From Flavihumibacter soli (GTDB lineage Bacteria; Bacteroidota; Bacteroidia; Sphingobacteriales; Sphingobacteriaceae), in contig NZ_JAAFZB010000096.1 of NCBI RefSeq assembly GCF_010692725.1, positions 186,001 to 250,000 of the forward strand: 64,000 nt of DNA, in the 5' to 3' direction. The notes under the pieces are model-generated. The model saw nothing but the letters and a program-made list of their open reading frames with translations, had not been told where the DNA came from and searched no databases. Of the stretch, positions 79 to 33,106 are shown in pieces. The number at the start of each line of letters is the position of its first letter. The first letter of the stretch is position 1. The translations under genes were made by a program, and so were the position numbers.

Positions 79-105
79 ATTGTGCACAAAACTGATATTA
101 TTGGA
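79..105 (+). promoter_or_regulatory. Shared 27-bp regulatory site, copy 1 (weak)
   Basis: Contains GTGCA (82-86), seven bases, then GATATTAT at 94, in the same spacing as the stronger copies elsewhere in the window. The half-sites are ATTGTG (79-84) and a degenerate ATTGGA (100-105). It lies about 145 bp before the ATG of the AsmA-like gene at 249 and points towards it, as the other copies do. It is the most divergent member of the set, so it is tentative. Confidence 0.4.
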
Positions 106-248
106 TAATATTGTTCGGTCCATTGCCAGTAATTTTAAAAAACGATCAGGCAGCAATTTCCGGGTTAGGCTTCTGCCTATTATTCCGCACATTAAAAGAC
201 TTACTGTTTAGGTCGCGAGGGTTTCCATCTTTCTCAAATTCGCGCTCC

Positions 249-2660
249 ATGCCCCGCTGGACCAGGATCACTTTAATAATTGCCGGAGCACTACTGGCTA
301 TCATCATTATAGCCTGGCTGGCTCTGGCAGCCTATGTTTATACCCATAAAAAGGAATTACTTGGTTCTATTATTGGGCAGCTAAATGAGAATCTCAACGG
401 AACTCTAACCGTCGAAACGATGGATCCTGCCCTTATCAGTGGCTTTCCGGGCGTATCTGTCACTTTAAATAATATTATTCTGCGGGATAGCTTATGGCAG
501 AATCACCGGCATGATGTATTGAATGCTGTAAGTGCATCCATCTCAGTGGATGCCTTTTCCATCCTCCGCGGTAAACCGACCATTAATAATATTACAGTTA
601 ACAAGGGAAAAGTACATTTTTTCACGGATAGCCTTGGAAACTCGAATCTGGCTGTTTTTAGAAAAAAACCTAAAAAGGAAACGTCATCAGAAAAGAAGCG
701 AAAGCAGATAAACCGCTTCGAACTTCACAACGTCAGACTTGTTTTTGAAAATCAAAAGAAAGCTAAGTTTTTCGACTTTGACATTTCAACTATTGACGCA
801 AAGATCAAGTATAATAACAAGGGCTGGGAAGGCAAGGTTAAGATCAATATGCTTGTCAATAGCCTGACCTTTAAGACCCGGCGGGGAAGTTTTCTGAAGA
901 ACAAAAAGCTTGAGACAAACCTGGACCTGGTCTTTGACCGGGGACTAAAGCTGCTCAGATTTCCGATGCAGGACTTTAAGATAGGAGAAGATAAATTTGA
1001 AATTGGCGGCCAGTTTTCGCTGGCAAAAAATTCTTCTGCATTCGGTCTGGATGTAAAAACGAAAAAAATAGCCCTTGGAAACGCGGCTGCCTTGCTAACA
1101 CCTAATATCGGGTCGAAAATCAGCAGGTATAACCTAAGTAAACCGATATCTGCGGGTGCGACTATACGCGGCGGTTTAAAGGCGGGTTCGGATACCCGTA
1201 TCATCGCTAACTGGGAGGTTGAGAATAATACCTTATCACTCTATGACGAAAAAGTAACTAACTGCAGTTTCACAGGTTCCTACAATAATACCGGGCTTGG
1301 CGGGCAATTAAGCTCAGATGAGAATTCCGCTATTCGCATTTACAAAATGAAGGGTGACTGGAATGAGATACCCTTTACCGCTGACTCTATTATTGTGGCC
1401 AACTTAAAGGTACCGGTGCTGACCGGTAAGTTTTTAGCTGATTTTCCGCTAATGAAGCTTAACCCAATCTTTGCACAAACCTTCGCTTTCACCAATGGGA
1501 CCGCTCACCTGGATGTTCTTTATAAAGCACCATTAGATAAGAATGACAGTGTGCGGTATATAAACGGGAAAATACAGGTTAAAGATGCTTCACTGAAATA
1601 CCTTTCCCGGAACCTTGCATTCAATAATGGGAATGCGACGCTAGACTTCCGGGGACAAGATCTTTTTTTACGGGGCATCAATGTACAAAGCGGTGGAAGT
1701 TCCTTACAAATGGAGGGATCGATCCGTAATTTTTTAAAACTTATCTATACTCATCCTGAAAAAATGTTCTTAGACTGGAACATAAGCAGTCGCCAGATCA
1801 ACCTCGGGCAGTTCATGGCCTTCCTTAAACCCCGACAGGCACGTCCGCGCACAGCAGGTAATAGTAAGTTTTCAGCGCGGTTTGATCACATGCTCAGCAG
1901 AACGAATGTAAGAATGAAAGTAAGGGTTGACCGCCTGATCTACAAAAAGTTTGTGGCCCAGGATGTAAACTCAAATTTGACGCTGACAGAAAAAAGAATA
2001 CTTATTCAGAATGTCAGCCTGAAGCATGCTGGGGGAAGTTTTATAATCAACGGAAACCTTGATCAGGGCGGCAGGTCAAACCAGTTCAAAGTGAATACCC
2101 GCATTCGCAATACCAACGTCCAGCAGCTGTTTTATGGATTTGATAATTTTGGCCAAAACGGCATAACAGACAAAAACTTGCGGGGTACACTGAATGCGGA
2201 CTGCAACCTTTCCGGCTCGATATCGGAAAGTGGCAAAATGGCGTCTAAGAGTACCCGCGGGACGGTAGGCTTCTCTTTAACAAATGGCGCGCTTATCAAT
2301 TTCGAGCCGGTTGAGAAGATTGGAAACATTGCTTTTTCTAACCGGGATTTCTCCAATATCACCTTTAAAAAACTGTCAAACACATTCACGATCCGGGGTG
2401 ACAAGATCATCATCCCGCCGATGTTAATTCAATCGAGCGTATTGGAAATTCATGTCGAAGGTGTTTACGGTTTTACTTCAGGTACAAACATGTACATCCA
2501 GGTGCCCTTGCGAAATCCCGAAAAAGAAGAAAAGGCAACTGCTAAGAACAGGAAGAAGAATAAAAAGGAGAAAAAGGAAAAAAAGGGCATTGTTTTAAAT
2601 TTGCAGGCAGTTGACGAAGGCGGACAGGTAAAAATTAAAATGGCTAAGAAAAAAGATTGA
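249..2660 (+). CDS. AsmA-like family envelope protein
   Basis: Encodes 803 aa. The N-terminus has one hydrophobic anchor (about residues 8-30 after MPRWTR), followed by a very long beta-rich, low-hydrophobicity region, which is the layout of AsmA/TamB-type proteins anchored in the inner membrane and spanning the periplasm. Family knowledge links such proteins to outer-membrane assembly or lipid transport; the exact role here is inferred. The last ~60 residues carry a lysine-rich run (KNRKKNKKEKKEKK) before a final beta segment. The frame is open from 111, but the ATG at 249 is preferred because it places a normal membrane anchor at the N-terminus; the upstream 46 codons look non-coding. A copy of the shared regulatory site lies at 79-105. 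The downstream gene is convergent. Confidence 0.8.
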   Translation: MPRWTRITLIIAGALLAIIIIAWLALAAYVYTHKKELLGSIIGQLNENLNGTLTVETMDPALISGFPGVSVTLNNIILRDSLWQNHRHDVLNAVSASISVDAFSILRGKPTINNITVNKGKVHFFTDSLGNSNLAVFRKKPKKETSSEKKRKQINRFELHNVRLVFENQKKAKFFDFDISTIDAKIKYNNKGWEGKVKINMLVNSLTFKTRRGSFLKNKKLETNLDLVFDRGLKLLRFPMQDFKIGEDKFEIGGQFSLAKNSSAFGLDVKTKKIALGNAAALLTPNIGSKISRYNLSKPISAGATIRGGLKAGSDTRIIANWEVENNTLSLYDEKVTNCSFTGSYNNTGLGGQLSSDENSAIRIYKMKGDWNEIPFTADSIIVANLKVPVLTGKFLADFPLMKLNPIFAQTFAFTNGTAHLDVLYKAPLDKNDSVRYINGKIQVKDASLKYLSRNLAFNNGNATLDFRGQDLFLRGINVQSGGSSLQMEGSIRNFLKLIYTHPEKMFLDWNISSRQINLGQFMAFLKPRQARPRTAGNSKFSARFDHMLSRTNVRMKVRVDRLIYKKFVAQDVNSNLTLTEKRILIQNVSLKHAGGSFIINGNLDQGGRSNQFKVNTRIRNTNVQQLFYGFDNFGQNGITDKNLRGTLNADCNLSGSISESGKMASKSTRGTVGFSLTNGALINFEPVEKIGNIAFSNRDFSNITFKKLSNTFTIRGDKIIIPPMLIQSSVLEIHVEGVYGFTSGTNMYIQVPLRNPEKEEKATAKNRKKNKKEKKEKKGIVLNLQAVDEGGQVKIKMAKKKD

Positions 2661-2747
2661 GTTCCGAGAAAAGACTCGTCAAATATGACTTTAGTATCCA
2701 ACCGTCGGAATAGCAAACAAACCCGTGCGAATATTGATACTGCTGTT

Positions 2748-3515
2748 TCAAAATCTGAAACCGACTTGCACTATATACCTGTAGCCAAAGTCCCATGTAT
2801 TAAAATTACCATCCGTTTCCAGTTTCCCTTCTTCGATCACCTTGCTCAAACCCGTAAATTTATTTTTTAGTGCCTGGGCTAGTTTTTCCTGGAGTTCGGT
2901 TCGCTCACCCTGCGGGATGTCACTCGCAAATGTTGCACCAATATCATAATTAGCTACGCCCGGACCTATCATTATCAGGTCAACTGCCAGTCGGTTCCAA
3001 AAAACAAATTGATAACCGATCTCAAAGCCAACGGTATGTATCTTAAGATCCAGGGAAGTTGAGCGTTGGTAGGTTGTTGTACCTGAGGCTACGTCCCATA
3101 TATTCTCCCTGATAACTTGATTATACGAATAATACGGCCCAATATAAACACCGCGCGGCGCGGCATGACGGTTCACACCCCCGAGGTAAAAACGGTAATC
3201 TGCGGAGATGTGAAAGCCCTTTTTATCTCTGTTGCTGGCAATCGAAATTGAATCGTTGTCATTCAATCTAAATTCGGGCAAAGCCATGCGTCCGATATTC
3301 AGCGATGCAGACTGGTTTTCTTTCAAAAGCCGTTCATATCCGAAAACGATATAATCCTGTCCAAATAGTGCAGGCCCGGTAAGGTTATACCGGATCGTGT
3401 TCTTAAATGTTTTCTCCTGGCCGGATTGCTCCTGTGCAAAAGCGGTGTAGGTAAGAATGATCAGCATTATAGCTATAATATAACGCCAGTACTTTGCAGT
3501 TAGCTTCGTTTTCAT
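2748..3515 (-). CDS. Outer-membrane beta-barrel protein (DUF3575-like)
   Basis: Encodes 255 aa with a signal peptide (MKTKLTAKYWRYIIAIMLII, cut after TAFA-Q) and alternating aromatic/polar strands such as GVYIGPYYSYNQ and VGFEIGYQFVFWNRL, ending in VQVGFRF. A C-terminal Phe is typical of outer-membrane barrels. There is a charged insert near residues 200-235 (ELQEKLAQALKNKF). The resemblance to DUF3575 barrels is a judgement from overall pattern, and the ligand is unknown. It is convergent with the AsmA-like gene (87 bp apart). A copy of the shared 27-bp site lies about 95 bp upstream of the ATG, so it probably belongs to the proposed regulon. Confidence 0.7.
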   Translation of the reverse strand: MKTKLTAKYWRYIIAIMLIILTYTAFAQEQSGQEKTFKNTIRYNLTGPALFGQDYIVFGYERLLKENQSASLNIGRMALPEFRLNDNDSISIASNRDKKGFHISADYRFYLGGVNRHAAPRGVYIGPYYSYNQVIRENIWDVASGTTTYQRSTSLDLKIHTVGFEIGYQFVFWNRLAVDLIMIGPGVANYDIGATFASDIPQGERTELQEKLAQALKNKFTGLSKVIEEGKLETDGNFNTWDFGYRYIVQVGFRF

Positions 3516-3607
3516 CGCTGAATTACTGATACAATTAGAATACGGGGCAGGAGTTTAACCACCTGCACTCAATTCAAATTTAAGTCATCCGGCTAGCCCT
3601 ATACTAA

Positions 3608-3634
3608 CACCATACTCTCATGTTATTGCACTAT
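3608..3634 (-). promoter_or_regulatory. Shared 27-bp regulatory site, copy 2
   Basis: Read on the minus strand: half-sites ATAGTG and ATGGTG exactly 21 bp apart, with GTGCA (3627-3631), seven bases, then GAGAGTAT (3612-3619). The spacer ATAACAT is identical to that of copy 3. It lies about 95 bp upstream of the outer-membrane protein gene starting at 3515 and points towards it. Confidence 0.55.
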
Positions 3635-3718
3635 TATAGATATTAGATATTCTCATACTTACTGAATTTCGCCTTTCAACAGATACTCAGCGCGCGGCTA
3701 ATGATGTTAATTCCACCG

Positions 3719-4039
3719 CTAAATGCTTGTAAAAATCTTTACAAGTAAGATGATCAAAAAACCAAAGAAGGGTATGGAAATGCCGAAGAGAAGCAATCGC
3801 AAGGTTTTTCGGTAATATGCAATAGCCCGGTCGGCCGGATAATTCATCTTTAATATGCGAAACAGGGCAAAAAGTAAACAGGCAATGCTTATCGTGATAC
3901 TCACGGAAACAACAATGTCTTTAAACAAATTTGTTGAGAATGCGTTGGGCATCCAGCCGCTTGAATACTCTAGCATGAATCCAAGGAAAATACCCGTGGC
4001 TGTGACCATCGGTTGCCGGAATTGTTGAATCGGATCCAT
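3719..4039 (-). CDS. Small integral membrane protein, unknown
   Basis: Encodes 106 aa. Three hydrophobic stretches are visible (about residues 10-25, 40-62 with VVSVSITISIACLLFALFRIL, and 83-105). Between the last two is a basic, tyrosine-containing loop (NYPADRAIAYYRKTLR). No family is recognised. The downstream gene begins about 200 bp away on the same strand, so it is probably a separate transcription unit. The region upstream of its ATG holds the 35-bp heptad repeat array and a copy of the shared regulatory site in the opposite orientation. Confidence 0.6.
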   Translation of the reverse strand: MDPIQQFRQPMVTATGIFLGFMLEYSSGWMPNAFSTNLFKDIVVSVSITISIACLLFALFRILKMNYPADRAIAYYRKTLRLLLFGISIPFFGFLIILLVKIFTSI

Positions 4040-4142: not shown

Positions 4143-4203
4143 TTAAAGAGTAAAATTAAATACAATTCCCCTAGTAAATCGTCCCTTCAGGTAACAATAG
4201 AGG

Positions 4204-4230
4204 AAAGTGCAATAACATGATAGAATCGTG
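4204..4230 (+). promoter_or_regulatory. Shared 27-bp regulatory site, copy 3
   Basis: GTGCA (4207-4211), seven bases ATAACAT, then GATAGAAT (4219-4226), with half-sites AAAGTG and ATCGTG 21 bp apart. It points towards the gene at 4351 (ATG about 120 bp away). It is also about 165 bp upstream of the divergent small membrane protein at 4039. With copy 4 it forms a subtype in which the perfect ATCGTG-type half is the distal one. Confidence 0.65.
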
Positions 4231-4350
4231 TTTTAACAAAGATTTACAAGGTTAATAAAATGCTGCAATTGCAATTAAAAAATGCGTAAATGATGCTGTT
4301 CTGGAGGATAATGGTTAACTTGTATCGTATTTTTTCATAAGTCTTATATC

Positions 4351-5521: not shown

Positions 5522-5558
5522 AAAGCGGTTGGCCAAATTCTTTTAGCTCAACCGCTTT
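5522..5558. terminator. Inverted repeat between convergent genes
   Basis: AAAGCGGTTG (5522-5531) pairs perfectly with CAACCGCTTT (5549-5558), with a 17-nt loop. A second hairpin, ACCGCTT-TACTG-AAGCGGT (5551-5569), shares one arm, so the two are mutually exclusive. It lies between convergent genes and overlaps the stop codon of the minus gene. There is no long T-run, so rho-independent termination is likely but not certain. Confidence 0.55.
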
Positions 5559-6042
5559 ACTGAAGCGGTAGGTCAGAAGCACTCATATCCCGGAGGCATA
5601 CATACTTGCCATTTCTTTTTACAAACAAGCTCATGTAATTCCCGGTATTAACGGCTTTATTAGTGGAATCAACTACTGTGAAATAGCCGATCTCCAAAAC
5701 CTGGTTTCCATCGTTTGAAACAAAAACTTCTTTCGTTTTAAACGAGATCTTATTAGAATTTGAACCCAGATCGGATTTCAAAAATTCAGCGATTGCTGCT
5801 TTGCCTTCCAATGGTGCCCTGTTTTGATAAAAGCTGACCGCATCATCTGCATAATAGCCGATATTTTTAAGTACACCGGAATTATAGGTTGCGGCAAACT
5901 CGTCTTCCTTAGCCTGGATCTCCCTTTTTATCTGTTCTTTGTCAATAATTGCTGCTGTGGGTTCTTCCTTTTTCGTATTACAAGCGAACATTATACTTAC
6001 AATACCAACCAATAGTACTCCTTTTACGATCTCGGTTTTCAT
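5557..6042 (-). CDS. SnoaL/DUF4440-like lipoprotein
   Basis: Encodes 161 aa from the ATG at 6042 (MKTEIVKGVLLVGIVSIMFAC). This start gives a clean lipoprotein signal with a lipobox ending at Cys21; the frame extends 19 codons further but with no signal function. The mature part resembles NTF2-like SnoaL/DUF4440 proteins: the helix KEDEFAATYNSG, then YADDAVSFYQNRAPLEGKAAI and closing strands (KISFKTKEVFVS, LEIGYFTV, GNYMSLFVKRNGKY). Such folds serve as small-ligand pockets or polyketide-cyclase-like enzymes; no catalytic residue can be assigned. It sits in tandem with another NTF2-like lipoprotein (6412-6906), separated by the heptad array. Confidence 0.75.
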   Translation of the reverse strand: MKTEIVKGVLLVGIVSIMFACNTKKEEPTAAIIDKEQIKREIQAKEDEFAATYNSGVLKNIGYYADDAVSFYQNRAPLEGKAAIAEFLKSDLGSNSNKISFKTKEVFVSNDGNQVLEIGYFTVVDSTNKAVNTGNYMSLFVKRNGKYVCLRDMSASDLPLQ

Positions 6043-6239
6043 AATTAAAAATTTAAGCCTAATACTTAATGTTTTAAGAAAATACTGCAAGCTTGCCACA
6101 GCTGCGCTTATTAGAAGAATTTTCCTACCGGAAACCTCAAATTTACATATCGCTTTAATTTAAATTAAAGGGTAAATAAATGAATCATTCGTTTCAATCT
6201 TTGACATAAACAAACAAAACATATCCGGGTTTCAGTTAG

Positions 6240-6408
6240 GTATAAGTTGTCAGGTATCAGCGATCAGCTTGAAGTCTCAATCCTGCCCGGGTGCCTGCCA
6301 CCTGATATAATAAACCTATTACCTGGAACCCGATACCTGTTAACTGATACCTGTTACCTGTTACCTGTTACCTGTTACCTGATACCTGTTACCTGCTACC
6401 TAATACCT
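6240..6408. repeat. Heptad repeat array (TTACCTG/GATACCTG)
   Basis: From about 6331 to 6408 the sequence is a run of 7-mers such as GATACCTG-TTACCTG-TTACCTG. A short stretch in the opposite orientation (CAGGTATCAG) is at 6251, so the ends can pair. Relative to the array at 4048-4142 the main run is inverted, and the two arrays bracket about 2.1 kb carrying two genes. Confidence 0.85.
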
Positions 6409-6411
6409 CCT

Positions 6412-6906
6412 TCACTTCTTCGGTGGGACTATGGAATAACCCAGTTGCCGCAGCGCATCGGCTTCATTATAAAAAGTTCTGCTGTGCACGATCTTTCCGT
6501 CTTCGATCCTGTATACAGCATTTACCCATAGATTGACCGGGCCCCTCCCATCTTTATATTTAATGGTTAGATAAGCCCAGTTTAATACCCAGTCGCCTTT
6601 CGCTTCACCATCAGGAACAGTAACAGCTAATTCTTTATGGCGGGTATATTCGATGGATTTATAAAGGTGTTCGGCATTATCCTTCCAGCCCTTAAGCGCT
6701 TCCTGTTTGTTCGTAGAATCGCCAATTGAAGGACCATAGCCCATGTAGTCATCGGCAAGAAGTGAATCCATCATGGCGACATTCTTCGTTTCCACTGCTT
6801 CCATATACTTCTTAGCAATGCCCATGTTTTCCCGTTCCGTTTTGCTTCCACCTGCATTGCAGGAATACAGGCTACAAATGATAATGACAAATAACAGTGG
6901 TTTCAT
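6412..6906 (-). CDS. NTF2/SnoaL-like lipoprotein
   Basis: Encodes 164 aa. The signal ends in a lipobox (IICSLYSC, Cys16). The mature region has the SnoaL/ester-cyclase pattern: KKYMEAVETKNVAMMDSLLA, DDYMGYGPSIGD, a Trp-containing middle (LKGWKDNAEHL), and the paired strands WVLNWAYLTIKY and VNLWVNAVYRIEDGKIV, followed by a C-terminal helix. It is probably a periplasmic or membrane-tethered small-ligand-binding or hydrolase-like protein; the substrate is unknown. The gene stops at the edge of the heptad array. The next gene downstream is another NTF2-like lipoprotein, so the pair may be an old duplication. Confidence 0.75.
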   Translation of the reverse strand: MKPLLFVIIICSLYSCNAGGSKTERENMGIAKKYMEAVETKNVAMMDSLLADDYMGYGPSIGDSTNKQEALKGWKDNAEHLYKSIEYTRHKELAVTVPDGEAKGDWVLNWAYLTIKYKDGRGPVNLWVNAVYRIEDGKIVHSRTFYNEADALRQLGYSIVPPKK

Positions 6907-6983
6907 GACTCTGTAGTTTAGTAGCTTTAAGTTGTTCTAAATCCTGTTAGGCCTAAGTGATATCGAAGTAAGCCTGAAACAGG

Positions 6984-7526
6984 CTATTTGATCGTATATC
7001 CCTTCCCTTCCAGGCATGCTGAAAAACCTTTTATAAAACTGTTTTTTAGCTCCGCTTCCTTATTGGCTGCGTCAGCCTGCGATTGCTGGTTTTGTTGAGC
7101 CTGGGCTTGTTTTCCCCTTCGCCTTCCAGACAGAGCACCTGCTACAGCACCAATGGCTGCCCCTTCACCAGCGTCGCCGGCAATGGCGCCGATGGCCACG
7201 CCAGCCGCTGCGCCCTTCGCTGCACCGACCACGGCACCGCCGGTTGGGCCTGTTTGCTCAGGGGCGGCTTGTACTTTCGGGAGATTCAGGGGATCGATTC
7301 CTGATTGCTCCATCGACCATTTATAGCATTCAAATTCATCCGCTTTCTGCTGCTGTTTGCTTTGCCCTTTTGCCGGATAAACAAATAATTTCAAGCCAGC
7401 CGAGATCTGGTTATAGGTCATTTTTGACGTGTCGGGCAAAGCTGGTGCTTGCTGGGCAACAGCTGATTGAGAAAGACCCAGGGTTAGTAACCCCAAAACT
7501 GCTTGTGTGAAAAAATTTGCTTTCAT
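6984..7526 (-). CDS. Exported glycine-zipper protein
   Basis: Encodes 180 aa from the ATG at 7526 (MKANFFTQAVLGLLTLGLSQ, cut near AVAQ); the frame extends ten codons upstream but this start gives the signal peptide. The middle (about residues 95-140) is a glycine-zipper segment: GGAVVGAAKGAAAGVAIGAI and GEGAAIGAVAGALSGRRRG, with Gly every three to four residues. It is followed by a Gln/Ala-rich coil and a C-terminal helix ending KGYTIK. Glycine-zipper proteins insert in or associate with membranes, often in the outer envelope. It lies 78 bp from the NTF2-like lipoprotein on the same strand and may share its transcript. Confidence 0.75.
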   Translation of the reverse strand: MKANFFTQAVLGLLTLGLSQSAVAQQAPALPDTSKMTYNQISAGLKLFVYPAKGQSKQQQKADEFECYKWSMEQSGIDPLNLPKVQAAPEQTGPTGGAVVGAAKGAAAGVAIGAIAGDAGEGAAIGAVAGALSGRRRGKQAQAQQNQQSQADAANKEAELKNSFIKGFSACLEGKGYTIK

Positions 7527-7640
7527 CGTTTTAGGTTTAGGTTTATTATCCTTCATGTTTGCCTTTGCTCTTGAGAAATCTCTGTCTTATTATTTTGAAT
7601 ATTTAATTCTCTACTTTAAGGTTTAACTCAACAAGGTAAT

Positions 7641-8444
7641 TCAGGGTACGCTTGGGCGGTCACGCATCAGCTTGTCTCTTAATTCAGTTTGAAGAGTCAG
7701 CAGGGGTTTCTGATCGACCTGGGTCACCCCTACTTCTGGTCGGTCGAGATCTAATATTAAAAACATGACCACGGCAAAAATAGTGGCGAGCATAAAGTTG
7801 ATCGTTAAATTTCCTCTTCCTGAAACGCCGAACTGATAGCCAAGAATAAGCATGGAAATAACTCCGATAATAAGCAGACCCCAGAGCACCGCTACCGGAA
7901 TGCGATAAACCAGTACCATGCTTAGTCGTTTGTAATTTGCGTACACCAGTTCATTTAACGCGCTGGTATATAAAGCGTATGCCTCCGAACCGCCATTCTT
8001 TACTGCAAGGGCCTCTGCATATGTCCACAAAGTGTCAAGTATTTCCCGGTTCCGCCTGATCACCTCACGAAGCTTAGAACGGTCGTTGGAGAGACCAACA
8101 ATCAGATCAACATACTCAACAAGGTGTTTCCTGGTGCCCGAGCGGTATGGTTCCGGTATGAGTCCAGCACGCAAATACACCATCCTAATGTTTTTAACTT
8201 CTTCCAGAAGCAACTCCTTTCGTGTTTCATAGCGATTGGCGGAGATCTGGAAAGTAAAAGCAAGCATAAATGCCAATAGGGCATTTGACGTGGCCACTAC
8301 TGACTCAATAGCCGTGTGCTGGATCTCTGCCCGATGCCTGCGATGATACATACCATATCGCTGCCCGATGATCATAGGTACTATCACCGCAAGAAGCGGG
8401 ATAACGAACATTCCTGCGATCTGAAGAAAAATTGGGATGGTCAT
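7641..8444 (-). CDS. DUF4239 (bestrophin-like) membrane protein, paralogue 1
   Basis: Encodes 267 aa with four hydrophobic segments (about 6-26, 48-66, 184-204, 211-233). A cytoplasmic helical stretch between TM2 and TM3 contains the family phrase RYETRKELLLEEVKNIR. A conserved LDLDRPEVG lies after TM4. DUF4239 proteins are described as bestrophin-like, which suggests an anion-channel fold; transport here is inferred only. Two paralogues lie at 8657-9445 and 12085-12894. A regulatory site copy lies about 190 bp upstream of the ATG, in inverted orientation. Confidence 0.8.
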   Translation of the reverse strand: MTIPIFLQIAGMFVIPLLAVIVPMIIGQRYGMYHRRHRAEIQHTAIESVVATSNALLAFMLAFTFQISANRYETRKELLLEEVKNIRMVYLRAGLIPEPYRSGTRKHLVEYVDLIVGLSNDRSKLREVIRRNREILDTLWTYAEALAVKNGGSEAYALYTSALNELVYANYKRLSMVLVYRIPVAVLWGLLIIGVISMLILGYQFGVSGRGNLTINFMLATIFAVVMFLILDLDRPEVGVTQVDQKPLLTLQTELRDKLMRDRPSVP

Positions 8445-8631
8445 ACCTGCGGGTTCTTTTAATTATCGGTATGAAGAATGCCAGACGAATGGCATTATTT
8501 GAAACCGTCGACTGCCTTATAAGATAGATGAAAAACGCAAGAGCAGGTTCGACCGCAACCTGTCAGAATCATACCTTTTAAATTTAATCATAATTAAAAA
8601 TCCACAAAAGCATCCGGCGTTGGTATAGACG

Positions 8632-8658
8632 AAAGTGCAACACATTGATAGAATCGTT
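8632..8658 (+). promoter_or_regulatory. Shared 27-bp regulatory site, copy 4 (inverted)
   Basis: GTGCA (8635-8639), seven bases, then GATAGAAT (8647-8654), with half-sites AAAGTG and ATCGTT. It touches the stop codon of the DUF4239 gene at 8657. It lies about 190 bp upstream of the DUF4239 gene starting at 8444 but faces away from it; it is the only copy in that orientation relative to its nearest target. Confidence 0.55.
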
Positions 8659-25836: not shown

Positions 25837-25929
25837 CTCCAGTAATTTTTTAATGTTTCCGGCCTTTTAAAGCCAATTTTCCTGTCGAAGGTTTCCTGGA
25901 TTTGTGAATTGCAGGGCCGGTTTGATGTA

Positions 25930-27249
25930 CTACATAACTGTAAATTGAATACGGGTCTGGAATAGATTGACGCCACCCTTCAAATTATACCGGTCCAGTT
26001 CGCCATAGCCATAAATAAACTCCATCCGCATGATCTTTGTCATATACCAGTTCACCATCGGAGTAATACGCCAGAATTTCCCTCCCTGTACAGATTTATC
26101 ATTCAGATCCAGGCTGGATAAGCGGAGAACCGCTTCCCATTCCCCCCACCCGCCGTTAAAAACAGATTTTTTTACAGGTACAAATCCAAAAACACTCGAA
26201 ACAGTCGTGTAAGGACGTTTGGTGGGCGTTAAAAACAAACTCACGACTGCATCTCCGCCATAGAATGTATGATCCTCAAAGTCATCTGATTTAAAACTAT
26301 GCATCATCACTTCCGAACCGATCATGAATCTCCCGCTGCTGTAGTATAATTCGGCACCGATATGGGTGGAATGATCCGCTTGAAACGAGCCGGTATTAAT
26401 AATCTGCGGAGCAGGATTAGATTCAGGTCGCGACTTTAAGGTAATTTGCCCATCCACAGGCTTACCATAACGGAGATTGGCGGCTACATGTACTACTTTG
26501 TTGTTTTCTTTTTCATAATAGGGCAACCACCCAACCCGACCTGCCAATTGCCAGGCAAAAGTGGAGAACCCCTGGCCTTCCGAAAAAACATCATTGTAGT
26601 ACCCCAGGTTCCAGAAGACTCTCGGTTTTGGCAGGGAACCAAACCATTTTATGCCATCTGCCAAAATCGGGATAACATCCAGCGCCATCTGTCTTTCCCC
26701 GGTCCATGGAGAATGGCCATTCATCACTTTGACCATCGAATATCCTTCCTTGGTACGGCCGATAAAAATATTCCCGGCCAATTCAGGCACACCGATAGTA
26801 AGCCCGGTTTCACGCAGCATCCAGATCTTATCATCGCCTTCATACATGTAAGCGACTTTCCATGAGAGGGACCTTTTTTTGTTTTTTAGTACCCCGCTCA
26901 TCAGGAGCCGGGCATCCCTTGTCTCGAACTTAGATTCAAAATTTAACCCGGCTGTATCCATCTGCTGGCTGAACACGTCACTTTGGCTGAATGCAGCAAG
27001 ATCCCCGATATACCCGAAGCCAATCTTTAAGGTCGAAAAACGACCATCAAATTCATTCCATGGTAGTTTTTTCACCAGCGAATCCTCAGGCGGAATGGTG
27101 AGAACTAATCCTTCAGTACCGTCAGGAACGGTTTTTTTTTCCTGACCAAAGGATTGAAAAGGCAGACAATAGATCGCCACCAAAAGGAGAATCAGGAGCG
27201 GCAGAGTTCTGGATTGTTGCCTTCGGCCTTGAATGCTTAAGTTTTCCAT
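25930..27249 (-). CDS. Phosphate-selective-porin-like protein, paralogue B
   Basis: Encodes 439 aa. A basic N-region (MENLSIQGRRQQSRTLP) precedes the hydrophobic signal core LLILLLVAIYCLPFQSFGQ. It is followed by the same modules as paralogue A (FIGRTKEGYSMVKVMNGH, PILADGIKWFGSLPKPRV, YYSSGRFMIGSEVMMHSF, FIYGYGELDRYNLKGG), ending IQFTVM. It starts 42 bp after the aspartase stop, so the two genes are co-transcribed. A fragment of a third paralogue survives at 24185-24282. Confidence 0.8.
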   Translation of the reverse strand: MENLSIQGRRQQSRTLPLLILLLVAIYCLPFQSFGQEKKTVPDGTEGLVLTIPPEDSLVKKLPWNEFDGRFSTLKIGFGYIGDLAAFSQSDVFSQQMDTAGLNFESKFETRDARLLMSGVLKNKKRSLSWKVAYMYEGDDKIWMLRETGLTIGVPELAGNIFIGRTKEGYSMVKVMNGHSPWTGERQMALDVIPILADGIKWFGSLPKPRVFWNLGYYNDVFSEGQGFSTFAWQLAGRVGWLPYYEKENNKVVHVAANLRYGKPVDGQITLKSRPESNPAPQIINTGSFQADHSTHIGAELYYSSGRFMIGSEVMMHSFKSDDFEDHTFYGGDAVVSLFLTPTKRPYTTVSSVFGFVPVKKSVFNGGWGEWEAVLRLSSLDLNDKSVQGGKFWRITPMVNWYMTKIMRMEFIYGYGELDRYNLKGGVNLFQTRIQFTVM

Positions 27250-27291
27250 AGGTGATTTCAGGCGGCTGATCTCAAACGAAGGTTAAATCCT

Positions 27292-28755
27292 TTACTGTTT
27301 CTGGCCGGTCAAAGTAGCAGGGTTCATTAGCTTCTTGATCTCGTCTTCAGTCATCAACTTCTTTTCACGTATCAACTCAAGAATTCCTTTACCGGATGCC
27401 AGAGCTTCCTTCGCCAGTTCTGTCGTTTTTTCATATCCGAGCACCGGGTTCAATGCGGTTACAATCCCCACTGTCGTTTCTATATAACGTTCCAGAACTT
27501 TCTCATTAGCGGTGATCCCATCGATACAATTTTTACGGAACAAAGGCAGTGACTTATAAAAAAGCGCTTGCGATTCCATGATAGCGACGGCAACCACGGG
27601 CTCGTATGCATTTAATTGCAGCAAACCATCCTGTGAAGCTATGGTCACCGTTACATCATTACCGATAACTTTAAAGCATATCTGGTTCATTAGCTCGGGC
27701 ATAACAGGATTTACCTTCCCGGGCATAATCGAAGAGCCTGGCTGAAGTGCAGGCAAATTGATCTCAAAAATACCGTTGCGCGGACCCGATGCCAGGAAGA
27801 TCAGGTCGCTGCTGATCTTAGATAAGGCAACAGCATAATTTTTCAACGCGGCAGAGTACATGACAAAGGCCTGCATGCTGCTGGTTGCGGCAACCAGATC
27901 CTTGGCTAAGTGCATAGGTTTACCGGTGATTTTCGCGAGATGAACCGCACATTTTTCAGCATAGCCGGGAGATGCCGTTAAACCAGTACCAATAGCTGTG
28001 GCACCCATATTCTCTTCGTACAAATAGGCTTCCGTTTTGCGGAGAATGTCAATGGCGGCATCAAGCTGGTTGCCAAAACCATGAAATTCCTGGCCAAGCG
28101 TCATTGGCACCGCGTCCTGGCCTTCTGTACGACCCATCTTCAGCAGGTCTTTAAACTGATCTCCTTTTTTGTGAAAAGCCTGTGAGAGCGCCTGCGCTTC
28201 TTTTATCAATTTATCATTATGTAATAACAGGGCGACATGAATGGTGGTAGGGTACACATCATTAGTTGACTGACCCATGTTCAGATCATCATGGGGTTCA
28301 ATAAACTGGTACTCGCCTTTTTTCTTGCCCATCATTTCGAGGGCAATATTTGCCAGTACTTCATTGGCATTCATATTAGCGGATGTTCCGGCACCACCCT
28401 GGTACAGATCAGTCAGAAACTGGTCATGATATTTTCCATCGATCACAGCCTGGCAGGCTTTTTCAATGGCGGCAAGCCTGTCCTTTTTTAATCTTCCTAC
28501 ATCCGCATTAGCACGGGCAGCAGCCAGCTTGACCATCGCATAAGCCCGTACATAGTCGGGATAAAAATTTGTTTTTACACCGCTGACCTGGAAATTCTCA
28601 AGTGCCCTGAGTGTTTGCACGCCATAATAGGCATCAAAAGGAATTTCCTTCTTACCCAGCAAGTCACTTTCTGTGCGGGTTTTTTGAGCCTGCGTAGCCT
28701 GAACGCTAACCAGCAACAATAACGGCAATAGCTGTATATATTTTAGCTGTTTCAT
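27292..28755 (-). CDS. aspA: Aspartate ammonia-lyase with a signal peptide
   Basis: Encodes 487 aa. It catalyses L-aspartate to fumarate plus ammonia. The fumarase/aspartase signature GSSIMPGKVNP is at residues 340-350, with HDDLNMGQSTNDVYPT (substrate-binding region), GRTEGQDAVPMTLGQEF and MGATAIGTGLTASPGY, which point to aspartase rather than fumarase. Unusually, the N-terminus is a signal peptide (MKQLKYIQLLPLLLLVSVQA, cut at TQA-Q), followed directly by the normal aspartase start (RTESDLLGKKEIPFDAYYGV). The enzyme should therefore act in the periplasm. It lies 99 bp downstream of the exported asparaginase, which would supply its substrate. Confidence 0.94.
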   Translation of the reverse strand: MKQLKYIQLLPLLLLVSVQATQAQKTRTESDLLGKKEIPFDAYYGVQTLRALENFQVSGVKTNFYPDYVRAYAMVKLAAARANADVGRLKKDRLAAIEKACQAVIDGKYHDQFLTDLYQGGAGTSANMNANEVLANIALEMMGKKKGEYQFIEPHDDLNMGQSTNDVYPTTIHVALLLHNDKLIKEAQALSQAFHKKGDQFKDLLKMGRTEGQDAVPMTLGQEFHGFGNQLDAAIDILRKTEAYLYEENMGATAIGTGLTASPGYAEKCAVHLAKITGKPMHLAKDLVAATSSMQAFVMYSAALKNYAVALSKISSDLIFLASGPRNGIFEINLPALQPGSSIMPGKVNPVMPELMNQICFKVIGNDVTVTIASQDGLLQLNAYEPVVAVAIMESQALFYKSLPLFRKNCIDGITANEKVLERYIETTVGIVTALNPVLGYEKTTELAKEALASGKGILELIREKKLMTEDEIKKLMNPATLTGQKQ

Positions 28756-28854
28756 GTTATCAAATTTTTAGTCTCAAGAAAGAACCGGTAACCAGACAAT
28801 TACGCCCGGATCACAAACCTGGTCGCGATTGGCTTCAGTGAATCCGTTCAGAAA

Positions 28855-29904
28855 TTAATACTTAAAGAACAGATCCTGGAGCTGCTTTTTGTCTTTTGAC
28901 CTTGTCAGACCAAGCATTAATAAGATCCTTGCTTTTTGAGGCGTAAGATCATCCGAAACGATGGTCCCCAGCTGGTCATCATTGATCTCATCGTGCAGCA
29001 CAACCCTGCCTGACGGAGTACGGCTCGCACGGCATACAATCACGCCTGCGGCTACAGCACGCTTTACAGCCTCAGTATAAGCCTTGTTAAAGTTTCCGTT
29101 TCCGACACCTGCAATGACAATTCCGTCGACTTTTTTCCCAACCAGCATATCGATCTGGTCAGATGGTGCATCGGCATACATATAGACGATATCCACGCGT
29201 GGCAATTTGGTATCGGCTGTTATTTGAATAGGTTTTACCGGTTGCACTTCCCGGGTTGAAGTAGCATAATATTCTACCCTGCCATCGTAAGCCTGGCCCA
29301 CCGGTCCTGTGTTGGGTGAACCGAAAGCATTTGTCTTGGTTGTACTTAATTTCATAACGTCCCGGGCATCGAAGATCCCTTCGTTAAAACTCACCAATAC
29401 ACCCCTGCCTTTGCTTTTAGGGTTGGCAGCGATAGTGATCGCGTCGTAAAGATTCTTCGGACCATCGGCGCTGATCGCGGTGGCCGGACGCATGGAACCG
29501 GTAAGTACAACGGGCTTATCGGACGTTAGAACCAGGTCGAGGAAATAGCCGGTTTCTTCCTGTGTATCTGTGCCATGTGTGACTACAATTCCCTCCGCTT
29601 CGTTATTCTTGAAAATTTGATTCGCACGGATTGCCAGCTTTTTCCAGATATCCACGGTCATGTCCTGACTACCCACGGATGCTATTTGCTCACCCGTAAT
29701 ATCGGCAACCTTTTTTATACTGGGTATGGTACCTATCAAATCCTCGATTGGAATTTTCCCGGCTTCATAACCAGCCCTGTCGGCGGATGCGCCTGCGCCT
29801 GCAATAGTCCCCCCGGTTGCTAAAATAATCACCCTGGGTAACTTCTGGGCCCAGGCCGGAGCTATGATTGTGCAAATGATTAATATTACAAATAGCTTTT
29901 TCAT
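28855..29904 (-). CDS. ansB: Type II (periplasmic) asparaginase
   Basis: Encodes 349 aa from the ATG at 29904 (MKKLFVILIICTIIAPAWAQ), which gives the signal peptide; 13 upstream in-frame codons are ignored. It hydrolyses asparagine to aspartate and ammonia. Catalytic motifs are LATGGTIAG (Thr33) and VVTHGTDTQEET (Thr112, Asp113), with VLTGSMRPATAISADGPKNL and the C-terminal RTPSGRV. Length and motifs fit the type II enzymes. It lies 44 bp after the porin gene and before the exported aspartase, so Asn to Asp to fumarate is encoded in consecutive genes. Confidence 0.95.
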   Translation of the reverse strand: MKKLFVILIICTIIAPAWAQKLPRVIILATGGTIAGAGASADRAGYEAGKIPIEDLIGTIPSIKKVADITGEQIASVGSQDMTVDIWKKLAIRANQIFKNNEAEGIVVTHGTDTQEETGYFLDLVLTSDKPVVLTGSMRPATAISADGPKNLYDAITIAANPKSKGRGVLVSFNEGIFDARDVMKLSTTKTNAFGSPNTGPVGQAYDGRVEYYATSTREVQPVKPIQITADTKLPRVDIVYMYADAPSDQIDMLVGKKVDGIVIAGVGNGNFNKAYTEAVKRAVAAGVIVCRASRTPSGRVVLHDEINDDQLGTIVSDDLTPQKARILLMLGLTRSKDKKQLQDLFFKY

Positions 29905-29948
29905 AACTTTTAATTTTAGGTTGATTCTATAGTTTTTTGACAAGCGGT

Positions 29949-31151
29949 CTAGTCGTTAGATTTAAAAAACGACTGCGAGAAGTTGTACTTGAATGAAAAC
30001 TGGATCTTTGAAATGTCTGTACTCCAGCCATCGCTGAAATTTTCGCGGTCACCCCACTGGAACTCTGCGCCTACCATGGCGTTTTTAACCGGGTAATACA
30101 TGAGATTACCGACTATGTATTGTCCTTTCTTGAATGCATTAGGGGCCTGGGCATCCGAATTATCAATGTCGATCATAGAGTACCCGATAGCGGTGCTGAA
30201 TTTTTCATTCCAGTTATGATCAATGAAAGCGGAAATTCCTGTAACGGGCAAAGCAACACCTTCTACAGGTGAGAGCGTATTCCCTGGATTATTTTTGATG
30301 CCCACATCGACCGGGGCATCATTCATGTAGTTCTGTACACCTTCGCCGTAAAGGACCGAGCCCCGGAAAACGGTAGTGGTCCCCAACTTCAGGTTGGTGC
30401 TCAGGTTCAGGCCCCAGCCCAGCGCATCGCCCGACAGGTCGAATGCGTCCGTCCCAAGATCTTCCCATTCGATACTGCGCAGGATCCCGGCCAACTCGAC
30501 ATAACCAAATGCACCCCCGTGGCGGTATTCAGCCGAAAAATCGGGCAACTTAAATCGCGGTCTAACATCCGCTAATTCAATCCGACCTGCGTAGACCCCC
30601 TGGTCGGCACTGGCGCCGGGTCTTTCCAGGGCAAAGGTCAAGCGGCTATCCCCCTGGATGGGCATAAAGCGTACCTGTACGTTACGGAAAAAGGCCATCC
30701 CGGTAGGTCCCCAGTATTCGACTGTGTTGGGGAAGACATCAATATCCATGAAGGGACTCCAGTATTGGCCTGCACCCCATTTTCCGAGTTCCGCATAGGC
30801 ATGCCGTAAACGGATGGTGGTTTGCCCGGCATCAACCCCTGTACCAAACATCTCAAACTCGAAATGTGTCCGCAATTCCCCCAGATCGGTCTGAAAATAG
30901 TTCTTGAAACCCAACCGAGTCTGACGCACGGAGAAATAGGTATTCCCATCCGTTCCGAATTCATTTTCAAAGGACGCCAGTTTAGTAGGACGAACCACAT
31001 CAAACCAGTCAGGATGGATCTGGCCAAAATTGTACCCGGCGTCCATCATGATGAACCCATAGATCTCCATGGTTTTCTGTTTTTGTTCGTCCTGCGAATA
31101 TGCATGCAGTGTGACGACCATGCATATCAAAAATCCAAATAATCTTTTCAT
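29949..31151 (-). CDS. Outer-membrane porin heading the asparaginase operon
   Basis: Encodes 400 aa from the ATG at 31151 (MKRLFGFLICMVVTLHAYSQ); the frame is open 21 codons further but without signal function. The mature chain is a 16-strand-like porin: EIYGFIMMDAGYNFGQIHPD, FSVRQTRLGFKNYFQTDLG, LRTHFEFEMFG, YAELGKWGAGQYWSPFMDID, MVGAEFQWGDRENF and the C-terminal IQFSFKYNFSQSFF. This resembles DcaP-like/trimeric porins with an NYFQ-type N-terminal strand. The substrate is unknown; the operon suggests asparagine or aspartate/fumarate. It is the first gene after regulatory site copy 8. Confidence 0.8.
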   Translation of the reverse strand: MKRLFGFLICMVVTLHAYSQDEQKQKTMEIYGFIMMDAGYNFGQIHPDWFDVVRPTKLASFENEFGTDGNTYFSVRQTRLGFKNYFQTDLGELRTHFEFEMFGTGVDAGQTTIRLRHAYAELGKWGAGQYWSPFMDIDVFPNTVEYWGPTGMAFFRNVQVRFMPIQGDSRLTFALERPGASADQGVYAGRIELADVRPRFKLPDFSAEYRHGGAFGYVELAGILRSIEWEDLGTDAFDLSGDALGWGLNLSTNLKLGTTTVFRGSVLYGEGVQNYMNDAPVDVGIKNNPGNTLSPVEGVALPVTGISAFIDHNWNEKFSTAIGYSMIDIDNSDAQAPNAFKKGQYIVGNLMYYPVKNAMVGAEFQWGDRENFSDGWSTDISKIQFSFKYNFSQSFFKSND

Positions 31152-31332
31152 GACATTGATTTTGTATAAGATGTTCATAAGCTTGATATTATAGACAAGG
31201 ATCCGGAAGACCAACAGATGTACGTTGTGACGACTCTTACCGGATAAAAAGAGGATCAGAATTAAGCCCTACAGAGTAGGTGAATAGTATTTGCCTGAAT
31301 AAAATTAACAAGCCTTAAAGCAAGTACATCTA

Positions 31333-31359
31333 CACAATTCTATCATGTTTGTGCACGAT
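31333..31359 (-). promoter_or_regulatory. Shared 27-bp regulatory site, copy 8
   Basis: On the minus strand: ATCGTG (31354-31359), GTGCA, CAAACAT, GATAGAAT (31337-31344) and ATTGTG (31333-31338). It lies about 180 bp upstream of the porin ATG at 31151 and is almost identical over 85 bp to the region before the glutaminase. The remaining bases of the 377-bp gap (31152-31528) show no gene. Confidence 0.78.
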
Positions 31360-31528
31360 GTTAGTAATCGAAACTTTAGCCATTCGAATTACCGGACTAA
31401 GGCCTCCAGCGTCGAAACCTGTATCTCAAAAGTTTTACCGAGCCAAATATTTTTGACAAGAGATAAAGGATCAGGAATGTCATTGTCAAAATTGATCCTG
31501 CCGTCGGTTTGACTAATTGATGATCGTT

Positions 31529-32149
31529 TTAAAAAGCCAGCCCAAGAGTAAAGGCGAAATGCTGCCAGCTGTCCTGGTCATTGAATATTTCAGAGCCGAC
31601 GGTATTATAGTTGTATGAAACATTCAAAAAGGCGCCGATGTCGGAATTAAACTGTTTTATCAGACCAACCTCCGGCTTGACCACGAAGCCCCAGCTCTCG
31701 GCTGAAAACTGGTAAATATTCGCGAAGTGCCTTTCATCGCTGTACTGGGTACCAAGGCCCAGTCCTACATAAGGAGTCACACCTGTTGCGGGCTTGTAGT
31801 AATGAACAGTGGCCGTGATAGGTACGGTATAGAAAGTGCGTATCAGGTCGCTGGTAACGGCACCGGTTCCGTCAGGCTTTTGATAGGTTGTAGGAGGAAT
31901 GTATTCCTCAAAGGAATTCCAGCTGGCGCTGATACCAACAGATAAATTTGGTTTGATCATTCGCCGGTAATCGAGGGTACCGCCCCGCCAGCTTGTTTCC
32001 GACAGGAAGTCTCCATTGGATGGAAGCCCTACCTGGTAACCGACCAGGAACTGATCAGTCTTTAGTTTGCTGGTGCTCAACTCCGGTTGCGCATAGGCAA
32101 TATTAATGATCGAGCAGATAGTCAATATAAAAAGGATTGCTGTTTTCAT
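31529..32149 (-). CDS. Outer-membrane beta-barrel protein
   Basis: Encodes 206 aa from the ATG at 32149 (MKTAILFILTICSIINIAYA-Q), chosen for the signal peptide; the longer frame overlaps the upstream gene. The strand pattern (QFLVGYQVGLPSNGDFLS, LSVGISASWNSFEEYI, VTPYVGLGLGTQYSD, FVVKPEVGLIKQFN, GAFLNVSYNYNTVG) and the C-terminal FALTLGLAF fit a small eight-strand OmpA/OmpW-like barrel. It lies 85 bp after the DUF4136 lipoprotein gene and is probably in the same unit. Confidence 0.72.
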   Translation of the reverse strand: MKTAILFILTICSIINIAYAQPELSTSKLKTDQFLVGYQVGLPSNGDFLSETSWRGGTLDYRRMIKPNLSVGISASWNSFEEYIPPTTYQKPDGTGAVTSDLIRTFYTVPITATVHYYKPATGVTPYVGLGLGTQYSDERHFANIYQFSAESWGFVVKPEVGLIKQFNSDIGAFLNVSYNYNTVGSEIFNDQDSWQHFAFTLGLAF

Positions 32150-32234
32150 AACTTTAGTGTTAATGAGTGTGATTTGGAGCACCGCGTAGGTGTCCGAAAT
32201 AGTGATCGTGTAATTCTGAGATTCTGAGATATTA

Positions 32235-32864
32235 TTAATTCGTGGATAGGTATTCAGACTGGGCAAAAGCCTGGTCAACGGCATTAATTCCGCGCTGCAC
32301 ATTGGCGTCAAGGCTGTCGCCTATGATACCAAGAGAGGTAATATTCCATACCGCCTTGTACTGCTGATTGATGGCCGCGTTTTTCAGGTCATACATATCG
32401 ACGATCAGCGTCCCGGTATTATAGACATAGGTTGTCGACCACCCATAGTAATAAGGGTAGTAGGATCCCCAATACCATGGATCATACCAGCCGTAATAAC
32501 CACCCCACCAGCCGGGATAATAGTATGATTCAATATTCAGAACCTTAACAATACCGATCTGGATCCCAAGGTCGGCCTGCCTTCTTATGTTAGTAACTGT
32601 ATAGCCTCTGGCGACCATGTTCGCCCTGACACTCTCTACGAGTTGCTGGGCACTCGGCCCGGTCAGGATACTGTCCTCATCTGTTCCCCCGAGGTTGGCG
32701 ACCGTGTCGGAGATATAGAAGGTTTCATACGTATTGAACTGGGCGGTCGGATCAACATTCGTGGAGACTATCAGATCGGAGGATAGGTCATCGAAGTCCG
32801 GATCTTTTCGACAGGAGGTGGCAGCGATAACAATTGACACCCCGATAAGGAAATACTTTTTCAT
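32235..32864 (-). CDS. DUF4136 lipoprotein
   Basis: Encodes 209 aa. The lipobox is at AATSC (Cys18). The mature chain has DUF4136 features: FNTYETFYISD, a conserved VESVRANMVARGYTV and the C-terminal GTLIVDMYDLKNAAINQQYK followed by IQRGINAVDQAF-like helices. A Tyr/Trp/Gly/Pro-rich insert (YYYPGWWGGYYGWYDPWYWG) sits in the middle. Function is unknown; the family is lipid-anchored in the envelope. A site copy lies about 215 bp upstream. Confidence 0.82.
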   Translation of the reverse strand: MKKYFLIGVSIVIAATSCRKDPDFDDLSSDLIVSTNVDPTAQFNTYETFYISDTVANLGGTDEDSILTGPSAQQLVESVRANMVARGYTVTNIRRQADLGIQIGIVKVLNIESYYYPGWWGGYYGWYDPWYWGSYYPYYYGWSTTYVYNTGTLIVDMYDLKNAAINQQYKAVWNITSLGIIGDSLDANVQRGINAVDQAFAQSEYLSTN

Positions 32865-33079
32865 ATGTATTATATTTAGTAGTTTATTTCATTCGATTGT
32901 GCGCCCTTAGCCCTGGTAAGGATCTTTGGGATCAATGAGCTTAGCAATCTTGTCTTTCATGTCAAGCAGGCTGTACTTTCTTTGTTATTAGAATTTCTAA
33001 TAAGCAAATGATCCTTTAACTGCTTTCCTGATGGTGTTTGCTCCTATCAAAATTAGCGGTTTGCCAGAGTGGACATTTA

Positions 33080-33106
33080 CACGATATTCTCTAATTATTG
33101 CACGAT
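33080..33106 (-). promoter_or_regulatory. Shared 27-bp regulatory site, copy 9
   Basis: On the minus strand this copy has two perfect ATCGTG half-sites exactly 21 bp apart (33101-33106 and 33080-33085). GTGCA is present but the inner box reads GAGAATAT instead of GATAGAAT. It lies about 215 bp upstream of the DUF4136 gene. This copy defines the direct-repeat structure of the motif. Confidence 0.65.

Follow-up and report, generated by a model that had tools for sequence, protein, structure and literature searches.

The window, a stretch of 64,000 nucleotides on a contig of Flavihumibacter soli (C96:186001-250000), belongs to a genome of 4.44 Mb in 96 contigs that its homologs and promoters place in the Bacteroidota. 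A first-pass annotation had reported nine copies of a direct-repeat element in this stretch. All nine places carry the element, and its description as a dedicated regulatory site with a 21-bp periodicity in front of envelope and deamination genes is supported by the analyses below.

Sites and genes in the window

The non-palindromic core of the element consists of TGCA, 7 bases, and GATAGAAT, with two GTGs spaced 21 bp apart. The spacing between the GTGs and the GTGCA-N7-GATAGAAT motif had been annotated correctly, as had the weaker inner boxes of copies 1, 2, and 9 and the two ATCGTG halves of copy 9. A core of this kind was found in 15 aligned sites and in a sixteenth (C96:269816). In the alignment, the strongest block, GATAGAAT, is placed between the GTG repeats, whereas the second box of the second repeat shows no conservation; the sites are intergenic, and no flank is conserved past the promoter. 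Since the site is a direct repeat without dyad symmetry, it does not resemble a LuxR/GerE palindrome, while its asymmetry and its pair of boxes separated by roughly one helical turn are features of AraC/XylS-type sites.

Both the matrix and the sequence profile that we used (R1, from eleven sites) were built from these sites, and the fair figure for their strength is therefore the leave-one-out matrix score, which was at least 19.7 (19.7 to 43.1 for 15 accepted sites). The maximum in 1.36 Mb of letter-shuffled DNA was 13.8, which bears out the claim of nine copies with a shared layout, and the best score of the same matrix in 79 glutaminase loci from elsewhere was 12.7. Scans of the window by R1 and by the matrix returned exactly the nine (matrix scores of 30 to 45; next best, 9.1), so the last 30 kb indeed holds none. 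The sites and their -7 boxes, which fall into the two classes described below, are as follows.

76..108, plus strand: operator copy 1, class A, forward (matrix 30.0, 19.7 when left out; R1)
130..137, plus strand: -7 box TAATTTTA, 28 nt after the copy 1 core
3605..3637, minus strand: operator copy 2, class A, forward (R1, matrix)
3575..3582, minus strand: -7 box TAAATTTG, 29 nt after the copy 2 core
4201..4233, plus strand: operator copy 3, class B, reversed relative to its promoter (alignment, matrix)
4151..4158, minus strand: -7 box TAATTTTA, 48 nt from the copy 3 core
8629..8661, plus strand: operator copy 4, class B, reversed relative to its promoter (alignment, matrix)
8579..8586, minus strand: -7 box TAAATTTA, 48 nt from the copy 4 core
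12006..12038, minus strand: operator copy 5, class A, forward (R1, matrix)
11977..11984, minus strand: -7 box TAATTTTA, 28 nt after the copy 5 core
12976..13008, minus strand: operator copy 6, class A, forward (R1, matrix)
12947..12954, minus strand: -7 box TAAATTTG, 28 nt after the copy 6 core
24351..24383, minus strand: operator copy 7, class A, forward, best match (R1, matrix)
24321..24328, minus strand: -7 box TAATTTTA, 29 nt after the copy 7 core
31330..31362, minus strand: operator copy 8, class A, forward (R1, matrix)
31300..31307, minus strand: -7 box TAATTTTA, 29 nt after the copy 8 core
33077..33109, minus strand: operator copy 9, class A, forward, with two ATCGTG halves (matrix)
33048..33055, minus strand: -7 box TAATTTTG, 28 nt after the copy 9 core

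The genes behind these sites are listed next; operon extents are predicted.

252..2660, plus strand: copy 1, AsmA-like envelope protein (Pfam PF05170; open reading frame [ORF] 111-2660, with a Met start downstream of the promoter assumed)
2748..3515, minus strand: copy 2, 255-amino-acid (aa) protein with a signal-peptide-like start, outer membrane protein (OMP)-like by eye, without a Pfam match
3719..4039, minus strand: copy 3, 106-aa membrane-like protein
5557..8444, minus strand: copy 4, probable operon with genes for a bestrophin-like protein (7641-8444), a glycine-zipper protein (6984-7556), and two SnoaL-like proteins (Pfam)
8657..11882, minus strand: copy 5, probable operon with genes for a sulfatase (9507-11882) and a bestrophin-like protein (8657-9445) (Pfam)
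12085..12894, minus strand: copy 6, bestrophin-like protein (Pfam PF14023)
14164..24127, minus strand: copy 7, probable operon with genes for a glutaminase with a signal-peptide-like start (23054-24127), a 443-aa porin-like protein, an amidohydrolase, OMP-like proteins, a DUF2252 protein, an alpha-carbonic anhydrase with a lipoprotein-like start (14938-15816), and a weak ion-channel match (14164-14838)
24550..31214, minus strand: copy 8, probable operon with genes for a DcaP-like porin, two OprO/P-like porins, a type II asparaginase (28855-29943), and an aspartate ammonia-lyase (27292-28755), both enzymes with signal-peptide-like starts
31529..32864, minus strand: copy 9, DUF4136 lipoprotein-like and OmpW-like proteins (Pfam; OmpW just below the cutoff)

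Over the whole regulon, the families include three bestrophin-like proteins, sulfatases, DUF1254/1214, DUF4136, OmpW- and Omp85-like proteins, and DUF2252, and the enzymes are glutaminase A, type II asparaginase, aspartate ammonia-lyase, and alpha-carbonic anhydrase. Judged by eye, the glutaminase, asparaginase, and aspartase have exported-type starts and the carbonic anhydrase a lipoprotein-like one. Aspartate ammonia-lyase is normally a cytoplasmic enzyme, and the one encoded at 27292-28755 has an apparent signal peptide. Elsewhere in the window, two similar lipoprotein-like ORFs (35694-36134 and 37265-37717) both start with MKNRMNKL and have no Pfam match.

Promoter architecture and distribution of the sites

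In class A (10 sites), the element reads forward, and in all 10 the end of the 20-bp core and the start of the -7 box are 28 or 29 nt apart. In class B, which comprises 4204 and 8632 (copies 3 and 4) as well as C96:285001, C93:377514, C93:379457, and C96:269816, the element is reversed, the distance from the core to the start of the box is exactly 48 nt in six of six sites, and an extra TTTCSTCTA-like extension is present. The A and B positions lie about two helical turns apart. The Bacteroidota -7 box (TANNTTTG/TAHHTTTG) was matched at 4 to 6 of 6 letters by 15 of 15 sites and at 5 of 6 by the sixteenth, the fit to the fixed letters of TANNTTTG being 5 to 6 of 6 in class A and 4 to 5 of 6 in class B. 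The class means were reached in 0 of 5,000 shuffles of the downstream bases for either class. At the nine window sites, no more than 3 of 6 letters matched at the class position of the other strand, leaving no partner box there. Every copy is followed by a Bacteroidota -7 box, so that the element is a site upstream of an ordinary promoter rather than a promoter of a foreign type.

At -33, TTTG was present in none of the 10 class A sites (3 of 4 letters in three) and in one of five class B sites, with a TTT run nearby in four of the five; the sixteenth site lay outside this test. This result is a weak feature because Flavobacterium johnsoniae also shows little -33 motif in the data that accompany the Bacteroidota -7 consensus (PMC6847099). 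The annotation had held that these are not the usual Bacteroidota promoters, which fails for the -7 box, a usual one, and stands for the -33 element, which is missing or accompanied by the site. It had also let eight of nine copies point at the nearest gene; we count seven, since 4204 and 8632 are reversed, with their -7 boxes on the minus strand 48 nt off. The proposed start-codon distance of 90 to 250 bp needed only slight adjustment, to about 89 to 231 bp from core to likely start, taking the internal Met at 252 for copy 1 (79) and elsewhere the first start of the ORF, which is TTG for copy 8 (31333).

When R1 was run on the whole genome, scoring the best 150 of 3,012 first-look candidates, 19 matches were obtained at E ≤ 10 and 13 at E ≤ 6e-5, with the next at 0.08. 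Two of the 13 strong sites, C96:270937 and C93:293259, were outside the training set and are thus fair predictions, and 12 of the 13 lie in C96:186-285 kb. The copies beyond the window are these two, C96:256824, and C96:285001, to which we added three weak-scoring copies with the class B layout. Of these, C96:269816 (E = 0.67) faces two sulfatase genes and shows both the class B extension and a -7 box at a distance of exactly 48 nt. For C93:377514 (E = 0.42) and C93:379457 (E = 0.08), acceptance was based on the class B layout and on the adjacent genes, one for a SulP-type transporter (by eye) and the other with 69% identity to the gene for the region's FGE-domain protein. Three further weak R1 matches (C92:12104, C96:103719, and C86:81771) were dropped for want of the class layout. 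The accepted total is 16 sites, 13 in 100 kb of C96 and 3 on C93, so that the regulon is mostly local, with about 16 sites (13 strong and 3 accepted weak) rather than the dozens expected genome-wide. Behind the reversed site C96:285001, we also observed a run of five DUF1254/DUF1214 genes and two large sulfatase genes (L020:6928-18642).

Conservation of the gene set and operators in other lineages

None of 19 congeners had an accepted site. R1 gave three matches in them at E ≤ 0.01, all in coding DNA; these three, in three congeners, lie inside nuoL (by eye) and were read as chance. Exact-core matches occurred in six relatives outside the genome itself, two of them being nuoL matches. With one mismatch allowed, the class A pattern had no match in 398 other family genomes (congeners included), and in its exact form, a strict one, it was found in none of the genome contigs of 84,980 species, a set from which this genome was possibly excluded. 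The glutaminase was not found at E ≤ 1e-60 in 97 of 99 relatives. Glutaminase relatives elsewhere gave 84 stretches, of which 79 distinct loci were kept, and R1 returned nothing from these at E ≤ 10, although the same search worked on the genome's own DNA.

Around the 79 loci, we found DcaP-like porins in 45, amidohydrolases in 38, the 443-aa porin in 35, and aspartase and asparaginase in 15 each, the others being rarer; the 255-aa protein behind copy 2 has homologs in 6. Homologs in at least two loci were found for 21 of 35 site-driven genes (query excluded), compared with 4 of 27 unsited neighbors. The three genes behind C96:269816 stand outside both groups: its sulfatases have homologs in three loci each and its FGE-domain gene in none. 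The gene set is conserved in the Bacteroidota, and this operator seems to be private to the lineage.

Besides the window, 35 distinct loci were examined, in 44 locus runs, for repeated elements of their own. Clear cluster-linked repeats were found in L085, L104, and L077, with L148 marginal; repeats were also present in others, such as L079, L080, L082, L088, L091, L096, L099, and L142, and several of the 35 had no repeat above shuffles. Extension to the whole genome was made for L085, L104, and L148 only. In Paraflavisolibacter caeni (7 Mb), TGCCANNATTNTNAATNNTTGGCA, a pattern drawn from the P. caeni cluster itself, had three matches with at most one mismatch; these fall between 172.7 and 186.5 kb on the cluster contig, and the backward control gave none. 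In a Bacteroidales metagenome-assembled genome (MAG) of 4.9 Mb (G440), ATACYYANNNATARGTATT gave 12 matches at 10 distinct sites, located on C7, C37, C39, and C67 (control, 1). In a Bacteroidetes MAG of 3.8 Mb (G443, from L148), it gave 8 matches at 5 distinct sites, none of them outside C23:36-58 kb (control, 1). The elements in these three genomes are dyads that differ from the F. soli site and are found for the most part at genes of the set.

The genes or operons behind these sites, some of them off the glutaminase contig, include homologs of p165 and p385 and genes for MscS-like, DUF4136b-like, and Omp85-like proteins, a sulfatase, a DcaP-glutaminase, and DUF2252. In G440, a -7 box (TAATTTTG, TAACTTTG, or TAATTTTA) starts exactly 21 nt downstream at eight of eight promoter-proximal sites, the remaining two sites being tandem copies 32 bp upstream, and seven of the eight promoters point at a member of the gene set or at an operon containing one. 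Near the sites in both MAGs are genes for GerE (LuxR-type) regulators, some of which also match PAS. In L077, a repeated ATTTAACCGTTATTAACCC-like element (1662, 2008, and 10409) precedes genes of the cluster for DcaP-like and Omp85-like proteins; it is possibly a further lineage-private operator. A TPR-type regulator-like family is encoded near the cluster in 15 of the 79 loci (e.g., L080:6556-8130 and L109:927-1796), in Flavobacterium and the Chitinophagaceae; TPRs are present in some members, and the N-terminal part has no Pfam match. Our guess is that this family binds DNA. A search for it in the F. soli genome gave no N-terminal match and a 24% match to the C-terminal part on C88.

Other lineages thus seem to use other operators, at least some of them with other regulators. 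The expected conservation in orthologous promoters fails for the site sequence in the congeners, family genomes, and glutaminase loci but holds for the principle, in that the same gene set is preceded in other Bacteroidota by shared operators of other kinds, whose distance to the promoter is fixed in one genome. It is an even call whether the gene set and activator logic, in a regulon probably serving acid or pH stress, have been kept while operator and regulator family were repeatedly replaced. Such a series would comprise the AraC-like direct repeat described here, a LuxR-type dyad in the Bacteroidales, another palindrome in Paraflavisolibacter, and perhaps the TPR-type regulator in Flavobacterium and the Chitinophagaceae. 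If true, nature would have provided a series of rewired whole regulons. The comparative set, in which one gene set stands behind unrelated operators, makes it testable how regulons change hands.

Candidate regulator, possible function, and known systems

We consider it likely that the element is the operator of one dedicated AraC/XylS-type activator for a largely clustered regulon of envelope, channel, and ammonia-release genes, activation and AraC identity being predicted, like the operon extents, from sequence. An activator of this type is suggested because the core is non-palindromic and follows a rule of forward-near and reversed-far placement, with 10 forward sites at 28 to 29 nt and 6 reversed sites at 48 nt. 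The direct repeats of XylS/Pm have a 21-bp period; here the GTGs recur at 21 bp, but the second box of the second repeat is not conserved. The literature gives the XylS half-site, which the core resembles, as TGCA-6 bp-GGTA in 15-bp direct repeats (PMC5481539), places the sites of MarA, SoxS, and RamA 53 to 73 bp (reverse) or 30 to 42 bp (forward) upstream of the start, with no recognizable -35 at their class II promoters (PMC10268841), and has RamA used in opposite orientations (PMC8811837). A class A site, ending beside a -33 region without TTTG, would place the activator next to RNA polymerase; a class B site, two helical turns further upstream, would present it on the same DNA face. From either position, the activator would turn on the genes through ordinary Bacteroidota promoters.

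The candidate for this activator is an AraC gene inside the region (C96:257816-258778), 1 of 12 AraC-type genes (HTH_18) in the genome, because it encodes the only DNA-binding regulator recognized there: no other DNA-binding domain scored above the cutoff among the Pfam-scanned region proteins, which covered the short ORFs in part. Homologs at E ≤ 1e-30 were found in 9 of 99 relatives, at identities of at most 45%. A MerR-type regulator encoded near the C93 sites was set aside, since MerR binding sites lie within the promoter spacer. With its probable B12-binding part, it is encoded in a stretch (L159:1640-7522; C93:369.6-375.5 kb) about 2 kb from the C93:377514 site, beside carotenoid genes that by eye specify phytoene desaturase, phytoene synthase, a hydroxylase, a cyclase, and isopentenyl isomerase.

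Several observations weigh against this interpretation. An unrecognized regulator could have been missed by a scan that covered only part of the short ORFs, and the AraC gene is no more than a candidate, since about 250 bp with a hairpin separates it from the site-driven DUF4136-like gene upstream; it has no accepted site of its own and no homologs in the 79 glutaminase loci. The spacer is 7 here versus 6 in XylS, and the second repeat is reduced to GTG. For class B, the shuffle margin is narrow (4.8 versus a maximum of 4.6 for the five sites tested), the -33 elements are suggestive at most, and two weak sites were accepted after their neighbors had been seen and the third after the box test. 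Since paralogs (bestrophin-like proteins, porins, DUF1254, and sulfatases) hit the same places, the entries in the homolog counts are not independent, and the carbonic anhydrase, ion channel, glycine-zipper, and AsmA proteins have no homolog in the 79 loci. In G440, the eighth promoter (C39:1473) faces no same-strand ORF of at least 90 aa, and the 21-nt result holds for that genome alone because the operator-to-box distance varies in G443 and in Paraflavisolibacter (L085). Finally, the proposed acid function is based on gene content.

Other readings of the site itself appear less probable. LytTR regulators bind direct repeats that recur every 21 bp, as the GTGs do here, histidine kinases are encoded in the window, and the genome has 12 LytTR genes; a LytTR-type or other tandem-binding (e.g., OmpR-type) response regulator, signaled by a regional histidine kinase, is nevertheless unlikely, given that the genome-wide search, made for LytTR genes, placed none of the 12 within C96:186-285 kb and that the strongest block, GATAGAAT, sits between the repeats. 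Use of LytTR or OmpR sites in either orientation, each with its own distance, is not known to us, which also counts against such a regulator. AgrA does bind two direct repeats (PMC4227749). Repressor operators, or divergent control that silences the regulon, would suit sites 4204 and 12979, which lie between divergent genes, among them p385 and a DUF481 gene with homologs in 8 and 19 of the 79 glutaminase loci. This is improbable, as the sites are upstream of the -7 box and not over it, at two discrete distances, the lack of TTTG at -33 in class A is in keeping with dependence on an activator, and the opposite strand has no partner box at the class distance. That 12 of the 13 strong sites fall in 100 kb could also reflect a locally spread mobile or repeated non-regulatory element (an insertion element or an uptake or partition signal), but we give this very little credence: all 16 accepted sites have a box at the class distance (three were accepted partly for it), the placement is intergenic with no conserved flank past the promoter, and in other lineages the same genes are preceded by different sequences.

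As to what the AraC/XylS-type activator might control, an acid or pH response is the leading function suggested, because periplasmic ammonia release and carbonic anhydrase occur together with channels. The use of Asn, Gln, Asp, and Glu as a nitrogen or carbon source, with a regulator that senses amino acids or ammonium, is a tentative alternative that we hold to be nearly as likely and that is compatible with the same operator. In the glutaminase loci, the DcaP-like porin, glutaminase, asparaginase, and aspartase often occur together, and dicarboxylate-symporter-like proteins (by eye) are encoded beside aspA-ansB in L094 and L125, yet nutrition leaves unexplained the bestrophin-like proteins, carbonic anhydrase, ion channel, sulfatases, and DUF4136 under the same site.

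Literature searches, judged by titles and abstract openings, returned no publication that describes the gene set as such. The parts are of known kinds; their combination and the lineage-private operators are new as far as these searches show. A stress-like regulon of about 16 operons and its promoters could thus be defined from DNA alone, and it provides a shared context for DUF4136, DUF2252, DUF1254/1214, bestrophin-like proteins, and an apparently exported aspartase.

In gene content, the regulon is like the acid acclimation system of Helicobacter pylori, with its periplasmic alpha-carbonic anhydrase, asparaginase, and ammonia release, but there is no urease among the scanned regulon proteins, and the phylum, regulator, and site are different. 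The published acid-tolerance system of Bacteroides combines a glutaminase and a potassium channel with glutamate decarboxylase (GAD) (PMC8082179). Here, in contrast, no glutamate decarboxylase was found among the scanned proteins, the enzymes have signal-peptide-like starts, and carbonic anhydrase, asparaginase, and aspartase are present. In its site, the system is like XylS/Pm in having a TGCA box, a GGTA/GATA-like box about one turn on, and direct repeats (PMC5481539), but it differs in its spacing of 7 rather than 6, its degenerate second repeat, and its use of both orientations. With MarA, SoxS, Rob, and RamA, the AraC/XylS family members of enterobacteria, it shares an asymmetric site that is forward when near and reversed further up and a near class without a recognizable -35 (PMC10268841 and PMC8811837). 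The cores here lie at about -50 and -70 by our own reckoning, compared with the commonest positions of 41, 62, and 72 bp upstream given there, and the site is longer, has a second GTG at 21 bp, is paired with a Bacteroidota -7 box, has a regulator that is a candidate only, and would serve a mostly local regulon. This comparison suggests that the MarA-type rule of near and far orientations may extend to the very different sigma factor of the Bacteroidota.

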